A program made the translations under genes and the position numbers. A DNA stretch of 64,000 bases, taken from assembly GCF_014696925.1 (NCBI RefSeq), contig NZ_JACJQY010000004.1:62001-126000 (forward strand), given 5' to 3'. The notes under the pieces are model-generated. The model saw nothing but the letters and a program-made list of their open reading frames with translations. It did not search any database and was not told the DNA's origin. The stretch is from Phormidium tenue FACHB-1050 (lineage in GTDB: Bacteria > Cyanobacteriota > Cyanobacteriia > Pseudanabaenales > Pseudanabaenaceae). Positions 33,983-63,355 of this stretch are shown one piece after another (the first letter of the stretch is position 1; every line of letters starts with the position of its first letter).

Positions 33983-35713
33983 CTAAACCTTGGTCATCAC
34001 GGAGTTGAGTAGGTTGGTCTTTTTGCTATTGGCGATATCTATCTGCTTTTCTAGCTCGTCGCAAAGGGTCATGAGTTGGTCGATTTTGGCAACAATGCGA
34101 TGTTGTTCTGCAAGTGGAGGGAGAGGAAATCGTAAAGACTTCACAGCATCTTTTGTAATAGTTGGTGTTGCTGTTCCGCTAGAAAAAGATACAACGTAAT
34201 CATAATTTCCAGCGAGATAAAAATATACAAACTTACTCAGCATGTTTTTGGGATTGAATTTCAATAGAAATAAGTTCATTGCCAAAGACATTGGTTTACC
34301 TCTATCGTCTACATAAAATGTGGCTCCAGGATCGGCAATTTTATTCATAATTATGTCTCCTGCAAAAACCTTGGATTTTTCTAGATATTCGTATGCTTCT
34401 TTTGTTATATATTTGTATTTCTCTCTAGACTTTTCGCTGAAATTAGTAGTTCTGAGCATTATTGCAAAATCGGGTTCGTCTAATAATTCAACATGCTTTT
34501 TTAAAATTTCATATGATCCATTTGCATGGTAGTCCGTAAGCCTTTCCATGACCAATCCCAGTCTAGTCCATTGCCAACTTTTAGGCACATTGAAAGGGAT
34601 TTCTTTTTCTAGAAGAAGAGGGATTTTACTTTCTCTTTTAATTTTTCCTTCCTTAACTAATCTATTTTTCTCTACCTCGATCGCATTCAACAACTCACTA
34701 GCTGGCTGGTCATTAGGATTTTGTGGTACTAGCTTGCCCATGACAGCGAGTTGGAGGATAGCTTTGCGTAGTTCTGCTACATTTGCTTTAACAGAATAAA
34801 GTTCGCCGAAATGTTGGGAGATGAAATGCCATGAGGTTTTGAAGTCGTTGTGATCTTTGGCTGTCAGTAATTGATTCAGCGCTGCATTATGGACGGTGAT
34901 TTGTTTTTGAGCATGGACTTGGCGCAGTTTTTCCAGTTCATCACATCTCGCCATTAGTTCATCAATTTTGGCAACAATACGGCGTTGTTCTGCAAGTGGT
35001 GGAAGTGGGAAAATCAATCTAGGAATATCACCTAAATTAAGTTTGTTCGTATGGCTCCCACCCGCTTTTATTTGATCATACTGTCGAATCAAGAAAGGAG
35101 AGCTTAGGGTTCTATGGGTAAATATTGGGATAATGAGATGCTGAGGAAACTTCAATAATCCAACACTAACAAACAAACTAAAGCATCTATCAGTGTCAAC
35201 TATAGTTGCGCGTCCTAATGTTCCAATACGACAAATCAATATATCTCCTCTTTCAGGATTACAGCGTAAATTTATTTGTTGATGTTCTTCTTGAGAAATG
35301 TATTTGCAATCATTAAATGAAACTGTTTTGCCATTTATATCTTTGATAGAGATAAATGGGATTCCAGTATCGAGATATTTTGGTGTTTGATGAACTCCAT
35401 CTGTAATTTGAGTAGCAATTTCTCCTAATCTCACCCACTCCCAACTTTTCGGCAAATCATAAGGAACTTCATCAGGCTTAATCTCAGGCAAAGGCTTAGA
35501 AGCCTTAATCTTCCCATCCTTCACCAATCTACTTTTCTCCGCCTCAATCTCCTTCAACAACTCCCTAGCAGACTGATCGCTTGGATCTTGTGGAACTAAC
35601 TTCCCCTGCATCGCTAGCGACAAAATCAACTCACGCAGGTTCTTCACCCCATCAGGTGCAGCAAAAGCCACATCAAAATATTTTTCTAAAAGCAAGATTG
35701 TTTCGTTATTCAT
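33983..35713 (-). CDS. hsdS: type I restriction-modification specificity subunit HsdS
   Basis: Recognises the bipartite DNA target for the HsdM/HsdR complex. 576 aa from ATG 35713, which lies 8 bases inside the end of the preceding gene. Two target-recognition domains are bracketed by matching conserved pieces: LREL-ILSLAMQGKLVPQDP and LRKAILQLAVMGKLVPQNP, LPKSWEWVRLG and VPKSWQWTRLG, and the coiled-coil spacers LPPLAEQRRIVAKIDELMAR and LPPLAEQHRIVAKIDQLMTL. Both halves are full length, so the subunit should be functional. The two variable domains differ, which implies an asymmetric target that cannot be read from sequence. Confidence 0.95.
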   Translation of the reverse strand: MNNETILLLEKYFDVAFAAPDGVKNLRELILSLAMQGKLVPQDPSDQSARELLKEIEAEKSRLVKDGKIKASKPLPEIKPDEVPYDLPKSWEWVRLGEIATQITDGVHQTPKYLDTGIPFISIKDINGKTVSFNDCKYISQEEHQQINLRCNPERGDILICRIGTLGRATIVDTDRCFSLFVSVGLLKFPQHLIIPIFTHRTLSSPFLIRQYDQIKAGGSHTNKLNLGDIPRLIFPLPPLAEQRRIVAKIDELMARCDELEKLRQVHAQKQITVHNAALNQLLTAKDHNDFKTSWHFISQHFGELYSVKANVAELRKAILQLAVMGKLVPQNPNDQPASELLNAIEVEKNRLVKEGKIKRESKIPLLLEKEIPFNVPKSWQWTRLGLVMERLTDYHANGSYEILKKHVELLDEPDFAIMLRTTNFSEKSREKYKYITKEAYEYLEKSKVFAGDIIMNKIADPGATFYVDDRGKPMSLAMNLFLLKFNPKNMLSKFVYFYLAGNYDYVVSFSSGTATPTITKDAVKSLRFPLPPLAEQHRIVAKIDQLMTLCDELEKQIDIANSKKTNLLNSVMTKV

Positions 35714-37106
35714 GGCGATTTTTTTCCTTTGCAAGCAAGGCTTGCCCCGTTGGAGTCAAGCGATATTTTTGTAAACGGCTATTAGGCTTATCAGGAATAG
35801 TCATTTCAATTAGATTGAGTGAGAGTAAACGTTTGATCTGCTTATTCAGTTCTCCAGAAATTGTCTTATGACCTAACATTCTCGACATACCAGCCTTGTT
35901 GTCAGCATCCTGTGCCAGATGCAAAAACACCTTTGTTGCTAGCCTCGACTCTAGCCTCGACTCTAGCCTCGACTCTAGCCGCAAGTCAGCTTGCCCCTCA
36001 GACTGTATTGATGCTCCCCTTTCTAGCTCTAGAGCCTCTAGCGAAATCGGAAACACAGTCCTAATAAAATTAGCCGTAAAAATAAAAGACTCCTTTGGAT
36101 AGGCTCTCAAGATACGAGGCATCCCAGAACCCAGATATTCCACAATATCGAGATCTTTGAAAACCCGCATCAAAATCTTATTGCGTGGAATCGAATAACC
36201 AGCAAAAAACTCCTCACGCGCCACCCCTTCAGGAATCGACCCCGCAGACGTAATTTCAAGGCGATCGTCAAAAATCTCAAACTTAGGCACAGCCTCATTA
36301 GTGTAATCATTGTGAATAATTGCATTGATCACCGCCTCGCGCAGCGCCACTACATTCCACAACCGCCGCTCGATTCTCTCTTTGCCTGTAATTTTTGTAG
36401 CCGTGCGATTTTCTACATCTAAGCGATCGAGCACCTGCTTACAAGTCTTAATCAACGAGCAATACCCATACTCATTAGTATCAATCAAATCATAGCGATC
36501 CAAACCTCGATATTTTGCCACCTGCACCGAATTACCATTGCGATCGCTTAGCAAATAGGCTGCATAGTTATACGCACCATCCTCAGTCAGCAATTCCAAA
36601 TTCGCCGCAAAGCGATCGCCTAACGAAAACCCCGCCTCCTCATAATAAATTCTAAGCTGCTCAAAATTGAGACTTTGCTGAAGCGATCGCATCCGCCCCA
36701 AAGAGTTACGAGTCCGCTTAGCAAAAAGCTCCTCAATCATCCGCCCCGACATCGGCTCAGATGCACTGCCAATCCTCATAAAACAGCCCTTCTCAGACAT
36801 CCCATACTTTCGCAAGTAATAGGGCTTTTCTGAACCACTGGCTAGAGTGACTTTGATAATGTCCTGAGACTCGCGGACTTGATGAATCACATCAAAAAGA
36901 CCTAAACAGGACGGCAAAATATTATTTTTTAACCGATCTTTAATCGCCAGTTGCACCGCATCACAGTCAGCAACACCCACCACCGCACCATCTCGCTCAA
37001 TACCGATATAGATCACCCCACCATCTCGATAGTTGAGAAAAGCGATCGCCTCTCGCTCGAAACCATCGGTCAATTCCCTTTTATACTCAACCCGATTAGA
37101 CTCCAT
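35706..37106 (-). CDS. AlbA_2/Schlafen-type DNA-binding protein with HATPase-like C-terminal part
   Basis: 466 aa. The N-terminus SNRVEYKRELTDGFEREAIA and GGVIYIGIERDGAVVGV is the AlbA_2 (Schlafen-type) fold; residues about 250-350 (ALREAVINAIIHNDYTN, LGSGMPRILRAY) match the ATP-binding region C-terminal domain often fused to it, followed by a winged-helix end. Just before the latter is a tandem LESR repeat encoded by three perfect 12-base units at 35941-35976. It is placed between hsdM and hsdS with overlapping reading frames, so it is part of the operon. A regulatory or defence function is inferred only from position. Confidence 0.85.
   Translation of the reverse strand: MESNRVEYKRELTDGFEREAIAFLNYRDGGVIYIGIERDGAVVGVADCDAVQLAIKDRLKNNILPSCLGLFDVIHQVRESQDIIKVTLASGSEKPYYLRKYGMSEKGCFMRIGSASEPMSGRMIEELFAKRTRNSLGRMRSLQQSLNFEQLRIYYEEAGFSLGDRFAANLELLTEDGAYNYAAYLLSDRNGNSVQVAKYRGLDRYDLIDTNEYGYCSLIKTCKQVLDRLDVENRTATKITGKERIERRLWNVVALREAVINAIIHNDYTNEAVPKFEIFDDRLEITSAGSIPEGVAREEFFAGYSIPRNKILMRVFKDLDIVEYLGSGMPRILRAYPKESFIFTANFIRTVFPISLEALELERGASIQSEGQADLRLESRLESRLESRLATKVFLHLAQDADNKAGMSRMLGHKTISGELNKQIKRLLSLNLIEMTIPDKPNSRLQKYRLTPTGQALLAKEKNRHE
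35941..35976. repeat. 12-bp tandem repeat, three perfect units, in coding sequence
   Basis: Unit AGCCTCGACTCT on the plus strand, encoding Leu-Glu-Ser-Arg on the minus strand. Changes in copy number would add or remove four residues without a frameshift, lengthening a linker between the ATPase-like part and the winged helix. Confidence 0.92.
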
Positions 37107-38581
37107 TAAATGCCACCACTTGTTTGTTGCAAAGCATTGATCAACTCCTGCTTCAAAGCATTTTGCGCCTTCTCCATCTCATGGGCAATCTCCAAATATT
37201 CCAACATCAAATCCTCAGGATCGCCATGATTGACCATCACCTCATGGGGATTTTTACAATCAAGATTATAATTCCGAGCCGCAATCTCCGCCGCTGATAC
37301 CTTCCAAGCATATTCATTCACCTTGCGCCCCTTTCTGGTCGCCCCGCCCCACCACTTTTTCTCGCGATCGAACTCCGCGATCGTCAGCGGCTTAGAACGC
37401 GAATAGGACTTGTAGCCCTCAGGATATGGATGGGCAAAAAACCAGACATCCTTAGTCGGCTCACCCTTCTCAAAAAAGAGAATATTCGTATTAATGCCCG
37501 TATAGGGACTAAACACACCCTTTGGCAAACGTACGATTGTATGCAGATTAAATTCTTCCAGAAGTTCCCGCTTCAGATTAGTTTTCGTTCCCTCACCAAA
37601 TAAGAAGCCATCGGGCAACACCACCGCAGCGCGTCCAGTATCAGGCTTGAGCAAATGCATAATCAACGCCATAAATAGATCGGCAGTCTCGCGAGTCTGG
37701 TACTTCTTCGGGAAATTGCTCTCAATACCATCCTCCTCCATGCCCCCAAAAGGTGGATTTGTGATCACAATATCCACCCGATCCTTCGGGCTGTAATCCC
37801 TAAGCGGACGGCTCAAGGTATTGTCATGGAGAATATTGCTAGGCACATCGATCCCATGCAACATCATATTCGTCATCGCCAACATATGCGGCAGTGGCTT
37901 TTTCTCCACTCCGTGAATCGTCGCCTCCCGCAAAGTGCGATCGCTAGGATTTTTGATCTGCGGATTCAGATGCTCGATTGTACAGGTCAAAAAGCCACCA
38001 GTACCACAGGCAGGATCAAGTACCTTTTCACCCAGCTTAGGATTGATAATATCCACCATAAACTGAGTCACAGCGCGAGGTGTGTAATATTCCCCCGCAT
38101 TCCCCGCCGATTGCAGATCCGCCAAAATCTTTTCGTAGATGTCATTAAACAAATGGCGATCGCTAGACGAATTAAAATCCACATCGCTTTCGATGCTATT
38201 AATCACCTGACGCAATAAAGTCCCCGACTTCATGTAGTTATAGGCATCCTCAAACACCGCCCCTACGACCTTACCTAGTGGCGACACCCCAGCCGCAGTA
38301 GCAAGTTTTTTCAGCGAAGGAAAGAGATCATTGTTCACAAAGTCGATCAGCTCTTCACCCGTTATCCCCTCTGGATTCTTTGCCCAATTTGTCCAACGAA
38401 AACGGCTCTGCAACGGAGATTTATAGTCCGAAATCGTAAACTCCCACTCCTGTTCCTTATCATCAAAAATCTTCAGAAAAAGCAACCAGACAATCTGGCT
38501 AATGCGCTGAGCGTCACCATCAACGCCCACATCCTTCCGCATGATGTCCTGAATACTTTTGATGAGTGTGCCAATTGCCAT
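37106..38581 (-). CDS. hsdM: type I restriction-modification methyltransferase HsdM
   Basis: N6-adenine methyltransferase subunit. The SAM motif DPACGTGGFL and catalytic NPPFGG are present, preceded by the helical N-terminal domain (IGTLIKSIQDIMRKDVGVDG). 491 aa is usual. Its TAA overlaps the ATG of the next gene (TAATG), which implies coupled translation. A 148-bp gap with a short G-run repeat separates it from hsdR upstream. Confidence 0.96.
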   Translation of the reverse strand: MAIGTLIKSIQDIMRKDVGVDGDAQRISQIVWLLFLKIFDDKEQEWEFTISDYKSPLQSRFRWTNWAKNPEGITGEELIDFVNNDLFPSLKKLATAAGVSPLGKVVGAVFEDAYNYMKSGTLLRQVINSIESDVDFNSSSDRHLFNDIYEKILADLQSAGNAGEYYTPRAVTQFMVDIINPKLGEKVLDPACGTGGFLTCTIEHLNPQIKNPSDRTLREATIHGVEKKPLPHMLAMTNMMLHGIDVPSNILHDNTLSRPLRDYSPKDRVDIVITNPPFGGMEEDGIESNFPKKYQTRETADLFMALIMHLLKPDTGRAAVVLPDGFLFGEGTKTNLKRELLEEFNLHTIVRLPKGVFSPYTGINTNILFFEKGEPTKDVWFFAHPYPEGYKSYSRSKPLTIAEFDREKKWWGGATRKGRKVNEYAWKVSAAEIAARNYNLDCKNPHEVMVNHGDPEDLMLEYLEIAHEMEKAQNALKQELINALQQTSGGI

Positions 38582-38670
38582 GAGCGTCCTTTAAAATTGC
38601 ATCGTAATTATAGAGTTTTCGCCCCTAGCCCCAATTCTAGGGAACAAGAAAATAATAGTCTTTCAAAGTC

Positions 38671-38703
38671 CCCCAGAATAGGGGGATTTAGGGGGCTTGA
38701 TTA
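38671..38703. repeat. CCCCC/GGGGG short repeat between hsdR and hsdM
   Basis: TCCCCCAGAATAGGGGGATT followed by TAGGGGGCTTGATT, a style of short interspersed repeat common in cyanobacteria and also seen after rpiA at 48949-49008. Confidence 0.6.
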
Positions 38704-38729
38704 ATCGAAACGTAGACAGAAAGAGTGTT

Positions 38730-41096
38730 TTACGCACTATAAAGCGAGCGCTTCAACTCGTGCAAAGCTGAGCGGTAGGCATCCAGCCCACCAAAAGCGC
38801 GGACAATCTCCATCGGTGTGCCAAATTGCGGGAAAGGCGAAACCGTGAGAATTTGTGTTTCCTCAATCGGAGCTACCCCCTCATCAGCATACTTTTGTAG
38901 TAGTGCTTCTAGCACCCGTCTAGCTTGCTCTCCATACTTAGTAAAGTAATTGCGCTTTTTTACCTGATCGGCGCGTTCCTTGCGGGTCAGCGGTGGCATA
39001 TCCCAAGCAACATGACAAAGCAGATCGAAGGGGTCGCAATCTTTCCCGATCTCTTGGGCTAAAGCCTCAAAGAATACACCCTCAGTAGCTAGTTCATCAA
39101 CGATCGCCTGTTTCTTATCAGCATCGCTCCAACGTCTGAGAAAGTCATCCAGTGAGGCAAATTCCTTAGTCACCGCCTTGCGCGTATAGTCTTTGAGCGA
39201 TTCAGTAATCAGTTTGCCGTTAGCATCGAAATACTGAACTCGTTCAGACGCAACCTTCACCTCAACATTTGCCACCACATAGCGCCTAACTCCAGTCTCA
39301 TATTCAGAACCATCGGGTTCAGCAGTCCATCCCAAGCCTTTGTCTGGTTCTGGATAGCGGCTGGCGAGTTCATCCTCCTCTGGCAGTTCTGGCGGCACTG
39401 GCGATTCATCCGATTTTGGCTCATAGATCTGCACTGGATCGCCGTCAAAATCAGGATCGGCAAACAGCTCCGTCGCTTTTTTGAAATCAATGATCGTGAA
39501 ATAGAACTTGTCATAGTCCTCATTAATGCGAGTACCGCGCCCAATAATCTGCTTAAACTCAGTCATCGACTGAATCCTTTGATCCAACACAATCAATTTA
39601 CAAGTTTGAGCATCAACCCCAGTAGTCATGAGCTTCGATGTCGTCGCAATTACAGGATATTTTGATTCTGGAAAAATAAAATTATCAAGCTCTGCTTTGC
39701 CCTCTTCGTTATCACCTGTAATCCGCATCACATAGCGAGAATCAGCAGCAAGATCGGCATTTTCATTCACCAATGCCTGACGCATTCGCTCCGCATGATC
39801 GATATTTTCACAAAACACAATTGTCTTATCAAAGCGGTTAGTAGCTTTCAGAAACTCGCTCACCTTCTTAGCAACTAACTTCGTGCGCTGTTCCAATACC
39901 AAATTTTTATCAAAATCCTTCTGGTTATATATGCGATCCTCAATCTCATAGCCAAATTTATCGACCATGCCGCGATCGGGTCGCCAACCCGCCAGATCTT
40001 TATCTAAATCAATCCGCACCACTTTATAGGGCGCAAGAAACCCATCATCAATCCCCTGACGCAGAGAGTAGGTATAGATCGGTTCCCCAAAATAATCAAT
40101 ATTAGAAACTTCCTTAGTTTCCTTTGGCGTTGCTGTCAGCCCGATTTGTGTCGCCGAAGAAAAATATTCTAAAATCTGCCGCCATGCCGAATCCTCAGCC
40201 GCACTCCCCCGATGACACTCATCGATCACGATCAAATCGAAAAAATCACGACTGAACTGTTTATAAATATTCTGCGCCTCTTCGTTGCCCGTTACAGCCT
40301 GATATAGCGACAGATAAATTTCATAGGACTTATCCGCTTGCCGCTTCTGAATTTTAGTCATCGCCGAGCCGAATGGCTTGAAATCATTCGTCATGGTCTG
40401 ATCGACCAAGATATTGCGATCGGCTAAAAACAGAATTCGCTTTCTTTTCTTGGACTTCCACAGCCGCCAGATAATCTGAAAAGCCGTAAATGTCTTGCCA
40501 GTCCCCGTTGCCATCACCAGCAACAAGCGATTTTGTCCCTTAGCGATCGCCTCGATCGTCTTGTTAATCGCCAATAGTTGATAGTAGCGCGGAGTCTTAT
40601 TTGACCCATCGCTATAGTAATCCTGCGTCACGAGGCTCTCTTGATTTTCCGTTAGTCCTCGATGAGCAGACCACCATAGCCAGAGCAAATTGGGAGAAGG
40701 AAATTCTTCTAGACTGATTTCTCGCTCAATAATGCCATCAAGGGCAATCTTGTTATGAAATAAAAAGCCATCACCATTGGAGCTAAATATAAAGGGAACC
40801 TCAAGCATTTCCCCATAACCAAGCCCTTGCTGCATTCCATCACCCAAAGAATGATTGTTATCCTTGGCTTCGATTACTGCGATCGGGATATTGGGCTTAT
40901 AAAACAATACATAATCAGCACGCTTGTTTTTAGCACGGGTATGTAACTGCCCACGCACAAGGACACGCCCATTAGTCAAACCAAATTCTTCGCGAATCTG
41001 CGTAGCGATATCCCAGCCAGCCCTTTCTAAGGCAGGAGTAATGTATTTGGTACAAATATCCCGTTCGGAGAACTGCTTTTTGGGAAAGATAGTCAT
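38730..41096 (-). CDS. hsdR: type I restriction endonuclease subunit HsdR (EcoAI-like)
   Basis: Motor and nuclease subunit. 788 aa from ATG 41096. N-terminal nuclease motif: [20 protein letters not shown] (Asp...Glu-x-Lys). Helicase motifs follow: [14 protein letters not shown] (Walker A), IDECHRGSA (DECH), GLTATP, and [11 protein letters not shown] (motif VI). The C-terminal third matches the EcoEI-type R-protein end. The ATG overlaps the arsS stop in ATGA, an unusual partner for a restriction gene. Start at 41114 is possible but would only extend into arsS. Confidence 0.95.
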
Positions 41097-42085
41097 AACA
41101 ACGCACCACCGCAACTAGAGCCACTTCCTGCCGTGCAACCATAGCAATAGTCATCGGTTTGAATTTTTTGGATGATATCTAATGAACCTAGCTCTAAAAT
41201 TTTTGCTACGGTCAGTGCCTCACCATTAGGCGATCGCGCTGGCAAATTCTCCATTTGATTAAAATCACAATCATAGATATTGCCTTGATAATCAATTGAA
41301 AGCTGATTTCGACACATTAAGCGATCGAGAGTGTCAGGATTAAAATGAGATTCTAAAAACTGCGAATATTCTTCTTCTAACTTGCGATGGCTCAGATGGA
41401 ACTTACTTCTGCCAATGGGAAGATTGGTAATTGTAAATAGGTTGTTAAACACAAGCCCAAAATGCTCTTGCAGATGGGTTTTATAAGCTATTTCTAAACC
41501 TTGTTGATTAGGAGCAAGGGAAAATTTATTGGAATTGGGAAGAGGTGGGTTGTATACCAAATCTAAAATCAAATCAGGATTAGAACCATAGCCAAGCCTA
41601 TTTAGCCATTGTAAAGCTTGAATTGATTTATCAAATACACCTTTGCCACGCATCTTATCCACATTGTCTTCAAGATAGCAAGGCATAGACGCAACAACTC
41701 GCACTTGGTTTTGAGCAAAGAATTCGGGTATATCGGTATATCCCTTTTCAAAATAAATCGTCAAATTAGAACGAACGATCGCTTCTTTTCCAAGTTCTCG
41801 CGCCGCCTTAACTAATGCATGAAATCCATACAGCATCTCTGGCGCACCCCCAGTCAGATCTACTGTTTGAATTTCGGGAAACCGACGAATGATTTCGATT
41901 AACTGTTGGCAAATTTCTGGAGTTAATTCTTCGGTACGAGTTGGACTAGCTTCGACATGACAGTGAGTACAAGCGAGATTACAAATTTTACCCAAATTGA
42001 TCTGCAATATGGAGATCTGATGTTTTAGAAACGGAGCTTTTAGTTTTTGAGAAAATGGTGTGGTAGCGATCGCAGGAACTTGCAT
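41093..42085 (-). CDS. arsS: arsenosugar biosynthesis radical-SAM protein ArsS-like
   Basis: Radical-SAM enzyme that in cyanobacteria takes part in making oxo-arsenosugars from dimethylarsenite and SAM; many homologues are annotated only as radical SAM/Cys-rich proteins. The cluster motif is [12 protein letters not shown], followed by [11 protein letters not shown]. The C-terminal Cys-rich tail [18 protein letters not shown] is diagnostic of the family. 330 aa. An arsM methyltransferase gene is not adjacent. The stop overlaps the hsdR start. Confidence 0.9.
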
Positions 42086-44932: not shown

Positions 44933-46738
44933 TTACTGTCTCTGTGTTTCACTGATTTGCCATTGTTTAGCAGACTCATTCCAAACTAGAGACATACGAA
45001 GAGTCTCAGGAAAAGTAGCTTTATCTTTTCGGTAGGTGAGATCAATATCAATGATCGCTGAATTCTCTTTAGTTTCAACAAGACGTGCTCCATTAACTGA
45101 GACTTGATCAACAGTGCCCCACCAGTCAGTAAAAGTGTTAAAGCCACCAGCTCGATCGCGTTGAAACTTGGGTGTCAGACTTTGCCATGCATTTTGGAAT
45201 TGGCGATCGTTAATTAGACTGTAATAGTCTCTGATTGCTTGTTCTGGAGAGGGTCTAGTTGGTGTAGGAGTTGGCGTTGGCGTTTTTGATGGAGTTGCTG
45301 TTGGCGTAGGTGTAGGCGAAGCTGTAGGTTGTGGCAAATCGCTTTTAGAAATTCTCTGAACTGGATCTTTGGCATTAGGACTAGCAAAAGCGCAATAGGC
45401 ATCATCTACAAATTTGAGATGTTCATTGAGTTTGGTCTTGCAGCTTTCAAGATCTTGAAACCGTCCTGTATAGACTTGCTGAAATTTATTGCTTCCTAAA
45501 TTAGGATAGTCAGGTATCCAGAACAAGCCTGCATCTGTATATCCTAAAGACTTTAATTTTTCTACTCTGAGATTGGCTTTGTCTTTTTCCTCAAAAGCAG
45601 AATCGGCAAGAAAATAAAACGGTGTTTTGGCAACAGACTGATTAGCAGGAAAGATTTTATTCCATAATGCGACTATGCCACCATTTTGCGAAACAACCAC
45701 ACCAAAAGCGATCGCTGCTCCAACTGTGCCACCAACAATCATGGTTGCTAATAACTGACCAAAGATCTTTTTCTTGGGATTTTGTTGAGGTTGATAGACA
45801 TAAACAGATTGATCAGGAACTGTAGGTGGTATATAGCCTCTAGGCGTTACGGCAACAGTCTGCATATTTGACAGAGCTGGAGATTTGGGAACTTGTTTAG
45901 GAGGAGATTGATTGAGTATTTGAGTTGGGCGCAATGCTTCTAGCATCTCTCTTGCCGAGCTATAGCGATCTCGTGGATCAAACTGCAATACCTTCGCAAA
46001 TATGGCTTTTAAATCTGTACTAATTCCCTGTACAAGCGGCTGCCAGAGAACTTCTCCTGTTTGCGGATCAGTTCCGAGTTCTTGAGGATATTTCCCCGTC
46101 AGCGCGAAAATAGCAGTTAAGGCAAGGCTATAGAGATCGCTAGCAAAAAATGGTCGGCCAGCCGCTTGTTCGGAAGCCATGAATCCTGGTGTACCGATCA
46201 CAATCGAATGTGCTTGCTGCGCCGAACTACGAATTGTGCTGACATTGAGAGTTTCTTTAACTGCGCCAAAGTCAATTAGAACTGGTTCACCAGAACGTAA
46301 AATAATATTATCGGGCTTGATATCTCGATGAATAATGCCGCGATCATGCACATAGATTAGCGTTTGCAGAATGCTAATCAGTAATTGTCTGACCGCATCT
46401 TCATTCCATTTGCCACTACGTTCAATAGTTTCGGTTAGAGTTAGTCCATCAATCCATTCTTGAACTAAATAGAATAATCCGTTTTCCGTAAAGTTTGCAT
46501 AGAGTTTGGGAATATAGCGACTTTCTTCTCCCAACGTTTCGAGGACGGCTGCCTCGCGATGAAACCTTTGTTGCAGTAATTCATACATTTGGGGATTGTC
46601 AGCAACGGGTTTAAGTTGCTTAATTACGCATCGACGGTTGGAGGGTACTTTGGTGTCTTCAGCCAAATAGGTTTCCCCAAAGCCGCCACTGCCTAGGACG
46701 CTAGTGACGCGATAGCGGTTATCTAAAAGGTTTGACAT
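44933..46738 (-). CDS. membrane-anchored Ser/Thr protein kinase
   Basis: 601 aa from ATG 46738. Kinase domain at about 8-280: VLGSGGFGETYLAED (P-loop), CVIKQLKP (Lys), IIHRDIKPDNIIL (catalytic Asp) and VLIDFGAVKE (DFG). A membrane helix follows near 340-360 (LATMIVGGTVGAAIAFGVVV), then a SPOR-like stretch, a Pro/Thr linker (PTPTPTATPSKTPTPTPT) and a C-terminal NTF2-like domain (AIRDYYSLINDRQFQNAWQS). The C-terminal sensor part should be outside the cytoplasm. It follows the photoactivated cyclase gene in the same direction after a 147-bp gap with two hairpins. Confidence 0.94.
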   Translation of the reverse strand: MSNLLDNRYRVTSVLGSGGFGETYLAEDTKVPSNRRCVIKQLKPVADNPQMYELLQQRFHREAAVLETLGEESRYIPKLYANFTENGLFYLVQEWIDGLTLTETIERSGKWNEDAVRQLLISILQTLIYVHDRGIIHRDIKPDNIILRSGEPVLIDFGAVKETLNVSTIRSSAQQAHSIVIGTPGFMASEQAAGRPFFASDLYSLALTAIFALTGKYPQELGTDPQTGEVLWQPLVQGISTDLKAIFAKVLQFDPRDRYSSAREMLEALRPTQILNQSPPKQVPKSPALSNMQTVAVTPRGYIPPTVPDQSVYVYQPQQNPKKKIFGQLLATMIVGGTVGAAIAFGVVVSQNGGIVALWNKIFPANQSVAKTPFYFLADSAFEEKDKANLRVEKLKSLGYTDAGLFWIPDYPNLGSNKFQQVYTGRFQDLESCKTKLNEHLKFVDDAYCAFASPNAKDPVQRISKSDLPQPTASPTPTPTATPSKTPTPTPTPTRPSPEQAIRDYYSLINDRQFQNAWQSLTPKFQRDRAGGFNTFTDWWGTVDQVSVNGARLVETKENSAIIDIDLTYRKDKATFPETLRMSLVWNESAKQWQISETQRQ

Positions 46739-46811
46739 CATGAGGTTATATTCATCGCTATTAGCGATCGTACAGCATACAGCGCTTTGCGCTGTAGTAA
46801 AACACAATATA

Positions 46812-46886
46812 TTTTTTGAAAGCGTTGTCAAGCAACGCTTTCAAAAAATGTAAATGCAGGTGGCGCTTCGCGCCACCTGCATTTAC
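46812..46886. terminator. two hairpins after the BLUF-cyclase gene
   Basis: GTAAATGCAGGTGGCGC and complement around TTC begins at the cyclase stop codon (46850-46886). Next to it is TTTTTTGAAAGCGTTG-TCA-CAAC-type inverted repeat (46812-46848) with T/A runs. Together they likely limit read-through into the kinase gene. Confidence 0.75.
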
Positions 46887-47962
46887 TACACTAACTCTGG
46901 GGTTTGACTGCCAATTAGTTCAAGATGTTGCTTAATTTCTTGTTTTAGCTTCTGAAAGTCTGACTTTTGGAAAGTTAACACATCATCAATCGAATACACC
47001 TCGACGATCGCCTCTTTTCCTTTTGCTTTAAAATCCCCTAGCCTTACCGCTCGCCAGCGATCGCTTAGTCCCTCCCGTACAGATGCCGAAAACACCAAAA
47101 ATCGATTTAGCTGTCTAGTCAGAGCTTCAATCCTTGAAGCAACATTCACCGCATCACCAATGACTGTATATTCTTTTTTAGTTTGAGAACCAATATTTCC
47201 TTCCAAAACTGTTCCTTTCGAGAGCCCGATGCCAATATAGAGAACTCGTAAAGGACTATGAGCGGGTGCTTGATTGCGTAAAATTTCTAGTTCGGCAAGA
47301 ATATCTAAACTTGCTTGCATTGCTTCATCGGCGCGATCGCCATCAAAATACGCCATTACACAATCGCCAATAAATTTCGTAACTTCGCCACCTCTAGCTG
47401 CGATCGCTTTAGTACAGATTGTAAAAAATTGATTGAGTAAATCCACAACTTCAGTTACTTCTAGCTTTTCGGTAATGCTGGTAAAGCTAATGATATCGGC
47501 AAAAAAAATGATTTTTTCGGCGTAACGGGGTGTAAGGGTGAGTGGATTAATTCCTTTCTCTATTGCTTGCAAAACTCCTGATTGCGTATAACTCGCTAAA
47601 ATTGTTTGTGATTCGCCCAAGGTTTGCAGCAAAATCTTGATGGGCTGTAGCAAAATATCGTTGTTTTCATCTAAAGCAATTACTTCCATCGACCAATCTG
47701 GAAAGCGTCGCTGTGAGACATTTTGCTCTGATTTGAGACAAAGAATCTGATTATGACGATCATCTTCTAAGATTCTTGTGTAAAGGCTATCAATTCTATC
47801 TTCTTCACCTTCTAAGATTTGAAAAAATATGCCACTGCAAGATAGCAATACTCCCGTAATACCATCCCTAGAGTTATTTGTTTGGGAAACACTGCCAATA
47901 CTTTCAATTTCTTTTGTAGTTAGCGATCGCGCGAACTTACTAATATAGGTCAGCCTTTTCAT
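46886..47962 (-). CDS. BLUF-domain photoactivated adenylate cyclase
   Basis: Blue-light sensor fused to a class III cyclase, 358 aa, very close in build to OaPAC of Oscillatoria. BLUF residues 1-100: Tyr6 (RLTYISKFAR), Asn30, Gln48 (FFQILEGEEDRI) and Trp90/Met92 (FPDWSMEV), the full flavin photoswitch set. Cyclase domain from about 148: metal Asp156 (FFADIISFTS) and Asp200, substrate-specifying Lys196 (VTKFIGDCVMAYF) and Thr266 (KEYTVIGDAVNVASRIE), which is the adenylate rather than guanylate pattern. It should make cAMP in blue light, feeding CRP-type regulators or motility. It is divergent from rpiA. Confidence 0.95.
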   Translation of the reverse strand: MKRLTYISKFARSLTTKEIESIGSVSQTNNSRDGITGVLLSCSGIFFQILEGEEDRIDSLYTRILEDDRHNQILCLKSEQNVSQRRFPDWSMEVIALDENNDILLQPIKILLQTLGESQTILASYTQSGVLQAIEKGINPLTLTPRYAEKIIFFADIISFTSITEKLEVTEVVDLLNQFFTICTKAIAARGGEVTKFIGDCVMAYFDGDRADEAMQASLDILAELEILRNQAPAHSPLRVLYIGIGLSKGTVLEGNIGSQTKKEYTVIGDAVNVASRIEALTRQLNRFLVFSASVREGLSDRWRAVRLGDFKAKGKEAIVEVYSIDDVLTFQKSDFQKLKQEIKQHLELIGSQTPELV

Positions 47963-48223
47963 AAAATTGCGATATTTTAAATAACAAAAGAATTCAATCT
48001 CTGTGAAATTAGATAAAAAGTTAATCTTTAAGCCCGCCCACTTTACTTGTAACTTAAATAATGACAGCAGTGTAATCAGCCATACAGCGTAACTGTTTTT
48101 GGATCAGCACGCCATATAAATGTATCATACAGTACATTTTGTTTAAGCGGATTCTCAGTTGCTGCTCACAGGTTGCGATAGGATTAAAATTACTGCTTTT
48201 AAGTTTATAAATAAGTATTTCCC

Positions 48224-48937
48224 ATGAGTATTTCTGCTGAAGATATTAAAAAGTTAAAACAAGAAGTTGGCATTGCGGCGGCGCAGCGCGTCAAGTCGGG
48301 CATGGTAGTTGGTTTAGGTACTGGTTCGACAACTGCTTTTGCGATCGAGGAGTTAGGTCGGCGCATTTCGACAGGTGAGTTAACCGATATTGTCGGTATC
48401 CCCACTTCTTTCCAAGCTTCAGTCTTGGGCAAAAAATATGGTATTCCCATCCGCAGTCTTGATGATGTCGATCGCGTGGATGTAGCGATCGATGGTGCGG
48501 ATGAAGTTGACCCCAATAAAACTTTAATTAAGGGTGGCGGCGCTGCTCATACCCGTGAGAAAGTTGTCGATTCACTCGCGGCTTTATTCATTGTCGTAGT
48601 CGATGAATCTAAACTAGTCGATAAGCTTGGCTCCACTTTCGCCGTACCGATCGAAGTTTTGCCGATGGCAGTTGCTCCAGTAACTAGGGCTGTCGAAAAA
48701 TTGGGTGGTAAGCCTGACCTGCGGATGGGTGTCAAAAAAGATGGTCCCGTCATTACCGATCAAGGCAACATGGTTTTAGATGTCACCTTTGATGCGATCG
48801 CGGATGCTGCCGAACTGGAGAAGACCTTGAACAACATCCCTGGTGTAGTCGAGAATGGTCTATTTGTTGGCGTTACCGATCTCATTTTAGTTGGTGAATT
48901 TAAGGACGGAAAACCTCAAATTCGCGAAATTTCCTAA
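48224..48937 (+). CDS. rpiA: ribose-5-phosphate isomerase A
   Basis: Interconverts ribose-5-phosphate and ribulose-5-phosphate in the Calvin and pentose-phosphate cycles. Motifs: [37 protein letters not shown] and [12 protein letters not shown] with the catalytic Glu. 237 aa is normal. The 260 bases before it, shared with the cyclase gene, carry no palindromic element and must hold both promoters. Confidence 0.97.
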
Positions 48938-57341: not shown

Positions 57342-59189
57342 TCAAGCGTTGATAGGATAGAGTATTTTATCTAAAATTTCAGATATTTCTATTAAAGATT
57401 CAGGATGATTTGTAATCAGCCATTCTGTGAGTTTTAGAGAATCTCTAGTTTTTAAAAATGTTACCCTACTGTTCGATAGCTTCGGAAATATATCTTTTAG
57501 GACATTTGCCCCATCAATTAAGCTGACATCTGCGATTCCTTTTGGAAAGTGAGCTTTTTTACTTTCCAATAGAATTACCTCAACATCTGAAGACTCAACT
57601 ACTTTCTCTTGGTTTGTGTCTAAATCATTCAGGACGCTTGCTATAGCTTCTGGGTGTAGTAAATAATTTTCATACATCCGTCGAGATAAAAACTCAACTG
57701 GGTTTAAGCTTCGCTTTCGCAAATCCTTCATTTGCTGTTCTGTTCGTTCTTCTTTGTCAAACAAAAAACCTACGGCTGGAGGAAATAAATTTTGGCTTCC
57801 ACTTAATTTATCGTAAATATCAAAAATAATGTGTGCCCGTTTTCCCTCAAGATCACCTGTATTCTTGACTGCAAGGATCTGAACCCCTCTAAGAGGTTTC
57901 TTGAGAATATTGGTAATGATTAATGGGTAACATTTTTCTTCTGTCGGTCCTTCGACCCAAAGTATTTTATCCATGCCGAATACATCAGAAAGGCTAACTC
58001 CAACCTCATCCAAAAGAGTTCTTAATTCCCCTGCCTTTTCCGAATTCATTGTAGAAACCAATGTTTCGCAACTTTCTGCATATCTGAGCATTGTGATAGT
58101 TGCAGGTTCAGCAGCAGCGATTATCGTGGGTGAATGTGTAGAAATAATATATTGATGTTCTGGAAATCTACTATTTTTACCTAGCTCCTTGAAAATTTCT
58201 ATAAGCTTTTTTGCTGCTCCAGGATGCAAGAAAGATTGAGGCTCATCGATAATGATGACTCTCGGAAATTTGGCAGTAAGTATGACGAACAAAATGGATA
58301 AGACTTGACCAACTCCTGTACCACAAGCAGACAGAGAGAAAGATAGATCATCTCTAAAGGTGGAAGGGGAAATATGCCAAACTTTAATTTCAATTTGAGC
58401 GCCCTGCAAAATAGAAATTCGTTTGATTTGAGGAAATATTATTGAGACGTATTCATTAAAAAGCTCGAATAGTTCTGGATTTTTGCCTTGCAATATGCCA
58501 AGCGCCTCTGGCAGATTAGATGTATTAGGTAAAAGTTCATGGTTATAAGTTCTTCCGCAGCTTCCAACATTAAGTCTCTCAGCAAGAAAACGATAAATTC
58601 GTTGCTGAGAAATACCAAGAAAAGTAGTAAATGAATTTCCCGCTAATACTTGATTTGCAGTTCCTTCATTGACTAAATCCCCAGTTGCATCACGCTGGGT
58701 TTGTATGTGTTGACATGCATCATTATAATTTAACGGAATATTTGCCTCGTACAAACCAAAGGCTGATTTTTTGTCAAATATCTCCCAAAAGATAGCTGAA
58801 TCACCAAATGTAGACGCACTCAACATTGCATCTTCTGGCTTATCCAACCATATTTGAAATAGTTGCAACGCCTCATTTGAACTTATCGCTGATGGAGTAG
58901 GTATTAAATACGGAAGTGGGATTTGCGCTAGTATGCTCTGACGTTCATTCTTTGTAAAGCTCAGGGAAAAATTTGTCTGAGATTGCGCTTTTGGAAGAGA
59001 AAATGGAGTAGGTAAGATACTAATACTTCTATGAGGGACGTTTTGGAAATTCAGTGCCAAAGCTTCGAGTAGAGCAGTCTTACCTGCGCTATTTTGACCT
59101 GTAATAATGTTTATTCCTGATCGAAACTCTATCCATCCAGAATCACGAAAAGATTTGTAGTTTAATACCTGAACTTTTGAAATCAGCAT
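57342..59189 (-). CDS. OLD-family ATPase/nuclease
   Basis: 615 aa. N-terminal ABC-type ATPase: Walker A GQNSAGKTALLEAL near 33, signature-like SLSACGTGVGQVLSILF, Walker B RVIIIDEPQSFLHPGA, then STHSPTIIAAAE. The C-terminal Toprim domain begins ILWVEGPTEEKCYPLI, with later Asp residues (LFDKEERTEQQ). This is the class 1 OLD layout, nucleases that include phage-exclusion proteins and the GajA subunit of Gabija. No UvrD-like GajB gene adjoins, so a stand-alone OLD is the better name. It is near two restriction systems, which fits a defence role. Confidence 0.88.
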   Translation of the reverse strand: MLISKVQVLNYKSFRDSGWIEFRSGINIITGQNSAGKTALLEALALNFQNVPHRSISILPTPFSLPKAQSQTNFSLSFTKNERQSILAQIPLPYLIPTPSAISSNEALQLFQIWLDKPEDAMLSASTFGDSAIFWEIFDKKSAFGLYEANIPLNYNDACQHIQTQRDATGDLVNEGTANQVLAGNSFTTFLGISQQRIYRFLAERLNVGSCGRTYNHELLPNTSNLPEALGILQGKNPELFELFNEYVSIIFPQIKRISILQGAQIEIKVWHISPSTFRDDLSFSLSACGTGVGQVLSILFVILTAKFPRVIIIDEPQSFLHPGAAKKLIEIFKELGKNSRFPEHQYIISTHSPTIIAAAEPATITMLRYAESCETLVSTMNSEKAGELRTLLDEVGVSLSDVFGMDKILWVEGPTEEKCYPLIITNILKKPLRGVQILAVKNTGDLEGKRAHIIFDIYDKLSGSQNLFPPAVGFLFDKEERTEQQMKDLRKRSLNPVEFLSRRMYENYLLHPEAIASVLNDLDTNQEKVVESSDVEVILLESKKAHFPKGIADVSLIDGANVLKDIFPKLSNSRVTFLKTRDSLKLTEWLITNHPESLIEISEILDKILYPINA

Positions 59190-62380: not shown

Positions 62381-63355
62381 TTAATGGTAGATGGCTATAT
62401 TGCTAAAATTGTCTGCATTAGTCTTAATACAATCATTTAAGTCATATAAATCAATTTCTTCTTTGAAATATTTTAAAATGTTAGAGCCTACAAAATAAGC
62501 TAAATTCACAGGTACAGAATTACCGATCATTTGTTCTAGATTTGTTTTAGTTCCAAAAAACTTAAATGACTCTGGGAATGTTTGAATATAGCTTCTTTCT
62601 ATAGTTGTTAAAGGTCTAACTGTAGCGATATCAATATCCTGAGGATCGCCACTATGCAATTTATAATTTGCAGGGATTGGACGATTAACGCCTCTGATGG
62701 TTGGACTTGGCTCATCAATTGAGAAAATCCCTCTACGTGCATAACTTCTAGGATGTCGATAATAATATTGTAGATTTAATCGATCTCCAAGATAGTCTCT
62801 AACTGTCATCGGTTTATTAGCCAAATTAATCTTAAATAAATCTACTAAAGTATTTTGTTTTCTGCCAAGTTCACCAATCATGAAAAAACGTGATCTTGCC
62901 TGTGGCACATGACAGAGAGAAGCATCTAAAATAACACTTGACAAACCATAACCGCATCTTATGAAATGCTCCGATACTTGCTGAAGAATCGGGCTTTTAG
63001 TAATTCTCTGCACATTTTCCATCACAAACCATTTTGGCTTAATCTCACAGATAATATTTGCAAAATTGTAAGTTAGATTAGCACGATCTCCATTTAAATC
63101 ACGTTTTCCAGCACTTGAAAAGTCTTGACATGGAGATCCCCCAATGATCATTTCTGGTGCAAATTTACGAATTATTCTAATTGAGGTATTTTCATCAGAT
63201 AAATCTTGTTGAATAGCTGGATGATTAAAGTTTTCTCGATAAATATCTAGCGCAATATCCCAGTTATCAATAGCTGCTAAAATCTCAATTCCTGCTTGCT
63301 GAAAACCAAGAGATAAACCACCACAACCACTAAATAAATCAACAGCAGTAATCAT
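62381..63355 (-). CDS. DNA cytosine-5 methyltransferase of a type II system
   Basis: 324 aa. Motif I DLFSGCGGLSLGFQQAG, catalytic GGSPCQDFSSAG (Cys76), ENV motif (WFVMENVQRI), the late motifs RPLTTIERSYIQTFPESF and EQMIGNSVPVNLAYFVGSNI. The target-recognition region between motifs VIII and IX includes SPTIRGVNRPIP. The ATG overlaps the stop of the upstream endonuclease gene (ATGA), the classic type II arrangement. Confidence 0.95.
   Translation of the reverse strand: MITAVDLFSGCGGLSLGFQQAGIEILAAIDNWDIALDIYRENFNHPAIQQDLSDENTSIRIIRKFAPEMIIGGSPCQDFSSAGKRDLNGDRANLTYNFANIICEIKPKWFVMENVQRITKSPILQQVSEHFIRCGYGLSSVILDASLCHVPQARSRFFMIGELGRKQNTLVDLFKINLANKPMTVRDYLGDRLNLQYYYRHPRSYARRGIFSIDEPSPTIRGVNRPIPANYKLHSGDPQDIDIATVRPLTTIERSYIQTFPESFKFFGTKTNLEQMIGNSVPVNLAYFVGSNILKYFKEEIDLYDLNDCIKTNADNFSNIAIYH

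Follow-up and report, generated by a model that had tools for sequence, protein, structure and literature searches.

A gene for a predicted blue-light-activated adenylyl cyclase in Phormidium tenue FACHB-1050, and its paralogues in Pseudanabaena

In the 64,000-nucleotide stretch of Phormidium tenue FACHB-1050 DNA analyzed here (the window), an open reading frame for a protein of 358 amino acids lies on the minus strand at 46886..47962, beginning with ATG and ending with TAG. The protein carries a BLUF photoreceptor domain (residues 1-93; 47684..47962, minus strand; Pfam PF04940, E 7.7e-29) and, on the same chain, a class III adenylyl cyclase domain (residues 148-319; 47006..47521, minus strand; Guanylate_cyc, PF00211, E 1.1e-19); NCBIfam had no model for it. 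Its best match among solved structures was OaPAC of Oscillatoria acuminata (PDB 4yus, 5x4u), which has the same domain order and a length within 8 residues, and which aligned with residues 1-356 without a gap (E 1e-134; 205 of 356 residues identical, 58%). The second-best match was bPAC (E 1.7e-115). A sequence-only reading of this DNA had proposed a BLUF-type photoactivated adenylate cyclase (PAC) close to OaPAC at exactly this position, and both the coordinates and the relationship were borne out. Upstream of the PAC gene, in divergent orientation, lies rpiA (ribose-5-phosphate isomerase A; 48224..48937, plus strand), and the next gene downstream encodes a Ser/Thr (Hanks-type) kinase of 602 amino acids, counted from the ATG at 46741 (44933..46741, minus strand).

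Elsewhere in the window, Pfam identified the type I restriction-modification genes hsdR, hsdM and hsdS (33983-41114, minus strand), with a Schlafen/AlbA_2 - Fic-like-C protein located between hsdM and hsdS. An AAA_15/AAA_21 ATPase (OLD/Abi-like; 57342-59189) and a C5-cytosine DNA methylase (62381-63355) are about 3 kb apart. The sequence GCGATCGC, which we take to be HIP1, occurs 101 times in the 64-kb window, against approximately one copy expected at equal base frequencies. Rfam and ARAGORN gave no match within the window.

The closest named relatives are from Pseudanabaena (sp. SR411, 98%; lw0831, 91%; UWO311, 90%), and the host is accordingly regarded as a member of that genus. Within the host genus a PAC match was detected in 23 of 26 genomes (E <= 1e-40). 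An even draw over the phylum gave PACs in 5 of 386 genomes, belonging to 2 of 142 genera (E <= 1e-45, among the matches listed, with at most five candidates scored per genome). PACs are rare in the sampled cyanobacteria and common in Pseudanabaena. No PAC was found in the remaining three genomes searched in the genus (G014, G020 and G024); rpiA was likewise not found in G014 and G024, so in these two the sequence may be missing and the PAC not truly absent. Among the papers listed in the open-licence PMC literature, none dealt with a PAC from Pseudanabaena; the single paper connecting this genus with BLUF concerned orange carotenoid protein.

A maximum-likelihood tree of 66 rows, in which the positions of the long branches L062 and L067 are unsure, placed the 30 Pseudanabaena sequences in one clade beside the PACs of Oscillatoriales, and nothing calls for a lateral origin of the gene. 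Eleven of the 30 sequences, here called PAC-B, form a single clade (support 100/99). The remaining 19, PAC-A, include the PAC of the window. The PAC-A rows are unresolved around PAC-B, with G002, G009, G013 and G003 branching first at weak support. Constraining PAC-A to one clade was neither rejected nor proven (p-AU 0.284), and the tree does not show A and B as two sister clades. Since PAC-A is not resolved as a clade, the A-B pair may postdate the genus.

Twelve genomes, including that of the window, have PAC-A only, four have PAC-B only (G001, G006, G007, G008), and seven have both, always in tandem. In the tandems PAC-A comes first in G012, G021 and G023, and PAC-B in G015, G017, G022 and G025; the two proteins of one genome are 72-76% identical. 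Some PAC-B copies are damaged, the frame being broken in G006 and the first 103 residues missing in G017, and the PAC-B of G023 runs off the end of its contig. PAC-B resembles PAC-A in its domains, its switch and metal residues and its locus, but differs from the PAC-A of the window by a 22-residue C-terminal tail ending TLF(M/K/I)LYD(R/P/Q), and by Met158 and His127. Seven positions that separate A from B passed the filter (57, 127, 158, 231, 267, 306 and 346). Because none of them is a switch or metal residue, the tail is the sole A/B difference with a known published effect.

A PAC-B gene is absent from the genome of the window, but a possible trace of one lies in front of the kinase. The sequence TATGCTGTACGATCGCTA (46762..46779, minus strand) matches the terminal codons of PAC-B (...MLYDR stop), and occurs only once in the 5.6-Mb host genome, ahead of the kinase. 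In G001, G008 and G012, PAC-B itself ends in ...MLYDR (or DP) and a stop codon 22-23 bp before the kinase, and the leader of the window kinase agrees with the PAC-B end and spacer of G012 at 49 of 55 aligned letters. The window locus appears to be the surviving A of a former tandem A-B pair, from which B was deleted in the lineage. It is also conceivable, although we consider it somewhat unlikely, that TATGCTGTACGATCGCTA is no relic at all and serves the kinase as a conserved promoter or leader, onto which the last codons of PAC-B were later superimposed. The element, or most of it, precedes the kinase in many genomes regardless of PAC-B, for example in G015, G022 and G025, where B is the first gene of the tandem; moreover, the window matches exactly over just 18 bases, and the 49/55 likeness to G012 needs gaps, crosses a palindrome and includes the spacer after the stop codon. 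Speaking against a leader element, the PAC-A-only genome G018 agrees with the PAC-B 3' end of G012 at 49 of 57 aligned letters, in an alignment that extends into the coding part. In addition G020, in which no PAC was found, retains PAC-B codons 330-370 (90% identity) between its rpiA and kinase genes, a direct instance of B being deleted from this locus.

The gene order was compared over 23 PAC loci (the window and 22 others). The rpiA gene adjoins PAC in 17 of these and the kinase lies 3' of PAC in 20, the 19 kinases outside the window being 65-99% identical to that of the window. The three loci without a following kinase either stop at a contig edge (L133, L145) or have the kinase on another contig (L144, from G013). 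Outside the genus, among twelve cyanobacterial and Omnitrophota loci (L054-L064, L083), rpiA was beside PAC in none and a kinase was absent from the vicinity in eleven; the twelfth (L083, Argonema) showed a kinase-domain match of 37% over residues 6-315. The rpiA/kinase surroundings of the window PAC were not matched in the six OaPAC-clade loci with an 18-residue tail (L054-L058, L063).

Immediately downstream of PAC, two perfect 17-bp hairpins adjoin each other. The first (46850..46886, minus strand; 3-nt loop) starts within the PAC stop codon, at its last base, and precedes a T run; the second (46811..46849, minus strand; 5-nt loop) comes directly after the first. Folded together, the two reach -53 kcal/mol (z -9.86). 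The first hairpin is called intrinsic-terminator-like on the basis of stem length and folding, the number of terminator-like pattern matches around the gene (2) being close to the shuffle mean (1.7). Given these two hairpins and the T run at the stop codon, transcription of PAC probably ends at 46811-46886.

These elements also bear on whether PAC and the downstream kinase are one light-signalling unit, either co-transcribed or sharing a target. Such a unit would fit the recurrence of the kinase behind PAC (19 of 22 loci besides the window), even in G002 and G003, which lack an adjacent rpiA, and the gap of only 22-23 bp between PAC-B and the kinase in G001, G008 and G012. In the window, however, the hairpin and T run lie in a gap of 144 bp, in G013 the two genes are on different contigs, and beyond the genus the association is missing from eleven of the twelve loci, the twelfth showing the distant match in Argonema. 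A common unit of PAC and kinase is therefore regarded as doubtful.

Long perfect hairpins of differing sequence were observed at the same PAC-kinase intergenic place in the window (46811-46886), in L137, L138 and L140 and in others, as if this site repeatedly gained palindromic inserts; the hairpin core of the window, GGTGGCGCTTCGCGCCACC, has three copies in the host genome. Around the gene, promoter-like matches were fewer (2) than the shuffle mean (4.0) and no promoter is claimed. A CRP-like TGTGA-N6-TCACA site was found in none of 15 PAC upstream regions. The 261-bp rpiA-PAC intergenic region contains two GTA-N8-TAC sites (48122-48135 and 48072-48085), which we take to be NtcA-like; the whole window has 8 such sites, with 7.0 expected. 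At 48122-48135 the GT-N10-AC part is kept in 14 of 15 aligned upstream regions of the genus (judged by eye), and this site may be a -10 box since it has TATGAT inside.

Alignment with OaPAC showed that the protein has the complete photoswitch set Tyr6, Asn30, Gln48, Trp90 and Met92, together with Ser8 and Asp67 of the BLUF part and Asp156, Asp200, Asp270, Asn273 and Arg277 of the cyclase part. As in class III cyclases, Asp156 and Asp200 are presumably metal-binding, and Asn273 and Arg277 presumably belong to the catalytic site. The adenine-selecting pair Lys196/Thr266 is also kept. The sequence-only reading had listed Tyr6, Asn30, Gln48, Trp90, Lys196 and Thr266, all of which are in place in OaPAC numbering, and its description of a BLUF-type PAC with photoswitch and cyclase sites holds for every residue checked, OaPAC and bPAC being the top structural matches. 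The whole-gene dN/dS between the window PAC and six orthologues of the genus (0.039-0.063) indicates purifying selection. We regard the gene as intact and, with high confidence, its predicted product as a soluble PAC of the OaPAC/bPAC type, and the enzyme very probably synthesizes cAMP when driven by blue light. This type of enzyme is already well known, and the window protein, taken singly, is one more ordinary member.

That the BLUF domain is vestigial or coupled only weakly to the cyclase, so that cAMP is made and light has little effect, could be suspected from the dN/dS values, which are higher for BLUF than for the cyclase in four of six comparisons (0.042/0.027, 0.075/0.043, 0.089/0.060 and 0.113/0.062). 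In the other two the order is reversed (0.062/0.068 and 0.063/0.075), the BLUF value never exceeds 0.113, and Y6, N30, Q48, D67, W90 and M92 are invariant in 24 of 24 aligned sequences spanning phyla as well as in the 29 of 29 genus sequences that have letters at the photoswitch positions. A weakly coupled light sensor is therefore considered very improbable.

The specificity positions are less uniform within the genus. All 30 sequences have Lys196, but Thr266 is not strictly kept, being Ala in 7 of the 29 PACs that can be read at this position (the A-type PACs of G005, G012 and G018 and the B-type PACs of G015, G017, G022 and G025), including the G005 orthologue that is 94% identical to the window PAC. 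One specificity position is changed in the window PAC itself, which has Glu264 where OaPAC has Asp264 (Asp265 of bPAC). In the text available from the bPAC study, the equivalents of Lys196/Thr266 are K197/T267, and a guanylyl cyclase was engineered from bPAC as K197E/D265K/T267G (PMC4569695). A text search of PMC10837130, as far as its text was available, returned no mention of the specificity residues. That the product would be cGMP, or both cyclic nucleotides instead of cAMP alone, as the variable Thr266 and the Glu at the bPAC D265 position might suggest, is hardly credible for an enzyme that itself retains Lys196 and Thr266, the former without exception in its genus.

Past the position of OaPAC Glu348, the window PAC ends in a tail of 10 residues (349-358, LIGSQTPELV; 46889..46918, minus strand), equal to the OaPAC tail shortened by eight. 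According to the accessible part of the one study on which the tail argument is based, the 18-residue segment beyond Glu348 keeps the OaPAC cyclase restrained, and shortening the tail raised cAMP with no further gain once nine residues had been removed; no restraint was seen in bPAC supplied with 15 residues of the OaPAC tail (PMC6937261). Tails of 4-14 residues were found in 18 of the 19 PAC-A sequences, the exception being G003 with 22, and tails of 22 residues in 9 of the 11 PAC-B sequences, namely those with an intact end. Elsewhere, six OaPAC-clade loci have 18 residues and five other cyanobacterial loci 4-16. As its tail is shorter than the inhibitory tail of OaPAC, the window enzyme may be less restrained and more active than OaPAC. 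With tails of 10 and 18 residues to compare, the sequence-only reading was reasonable in suggesting that a new variant may have a different dark activity or lifetime.

The relation to bPAC/BlaC of Beggiatoa (PDB 5m27) is more distant than that to OaPAC, with 50-51% identity in structural alignments, although domain order, fold, the K/T specificity pair and a short tail are shared; in the text available from PMC6937261, the bPAC tail is given as 3 residues. An AlphaFold monomer model of the window PAC, built from 24 aligned sequences, had a mean pLDDT of 88 and a pTM of 0.68, and its top Foldseek matches were OaPAC and bPAC entries. The full-length TM was 0.63-0.66 for the first matches, and about 0.6-0.7 over the OaPAC and bPAC entries with an rmsd of 7-9 A, modest values that we ascribe to domain orientation in the monomer model, which is not settled; against the cyclase-only bPAC entry 5mbg, the TM was 0.94 by target length. 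The domains, residues and fold of a PAC are thus present in the window protein.

Flavin chemistry, dimerization and light dependence are carried over from OaPAC and bPAC. By analogy, FAD in the N-terminal BLUF domain would take up blue light, and electron and proton exchange with Tyr6, together with rearrangement of Gln48, would alter the hydrogen bonds of the flavin. The signal would then pass along the helix after BLUF, which connects it to the cyclase (residues 103-125 in the model), to active sites at the homodimer interface. There Asp156 and Asp200 would bind the metal ions, Lys196/Thr266 would select adenine, and ATP would be converted to cAMP. For OaPAC, light stimulation of up to 20-fold and recovery in 3.6 s are given in the accessible part of PMC10448171.

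More distant BLUF-cyclase relatives were observed in methanotrophs and nitrifiers, from Methylococcaceae, Nitrosomonadaceae and other proteobacteria. In 17 loci (L070-L082, L084-L087) the BLUF-cyclase forms the C-terminal end of a large protein of about 1210 amino acids (e.g. L074:3358-7011, L080:3358-6987, L072:3343-6990), with 882-941 codons before the BLUF part in the 14 loci not cut by a contig edge. Pfam detected DoxX, Pyr_redox_2, cNMP_binding and BLUF in three of these fusions; Guanylate_cyc was barely above the cut-off in one, below it in another and not matched in the third. All 17 proteins retain the BLUF switch residues, and all 17 have lost both Asp156 and Asp200. From their sequences these proteins look like light-sensing, nucleotide-binding oxidoreductases in which a dead cyclase serves as transmitter, and possibly act as a blue-light-controlled respiratory oxidoreductase. 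Searches of the open-licence PMC literature found no paper on a BLUF domain with a cyclic nucleotide-binding domain and an oxidoreductase, nor on BLUF with adenylate cyclase and methanotroph; BLUF and DoxX came together in one paper, where DoxX is, in the text available, a neighboring gene. Two stand-alone BLUF-cyclases (L068, L069) keep Asp156 and have Ser for Asp200, a half-degenerate metal site.

In addition to this PAC, the host genome has 16 further matches to the cyclase domain and encodes one protein with BLUF alone; the PAC may therefore not be the main source of cAMP. There were 13 cNMP-binding matches, 11 of them over the cut-off; the proteins presumably carry an HTH, as in the CRP family. 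Two of these proteins (L117, L118) are CRP-like and have a GE...PRS cassette, which we take to mark a CRP-type receptor. Another blue-light-driven enzyme, the LOV-type PAC of Microcoleus chthonoplastes PCC 7420 (presumably the one with the short name cPAC), has a LOV sensor where the window PAC has BLUF. Like the window PAC, it is a cyanobacterial adenylyl cyclase, as stated in the accessible part of PMC4284465, which also gives, for Synechocystis, an increase of cAMP and motility in blue light via Cya1 and a requirement of SYCRP1 for motility and pili. By analogy, cAMP from the window PAC would act on CRP-type receptors, perhaps on motility as in Synechocystis. The most likely host role would be to pass blue light, in the form of cAMP, straight to CRP-type regulators, and we infer, as the sequence-only reading had proposed, that the host would gain direct blue-light control of cAMP.

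A more speculative reading, which we consider improbable, is that a lineage of Pseudanabaena once had a two-enzyme module between rpiA and the kinase, consisting of an unrestrained, short-tailed A and a restrained, long-tailed B that together would translate a wider range of light into cAMP. Species such as that of the window would then have discarded B, with the terminator isolating a high-gain A from the kinase. Within such a module A and B possibly formed a heterodimer.

The genus, in which 23 of 26 genomes have a PAC, offers paralogues with long and with short tails as well as naturally occurring T266A variants, a ready panel for finding the determinants of dark activity and light gain. 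The Pseudanabaena PACs are a tractable way into the native host role of these optogenetic enzymes.
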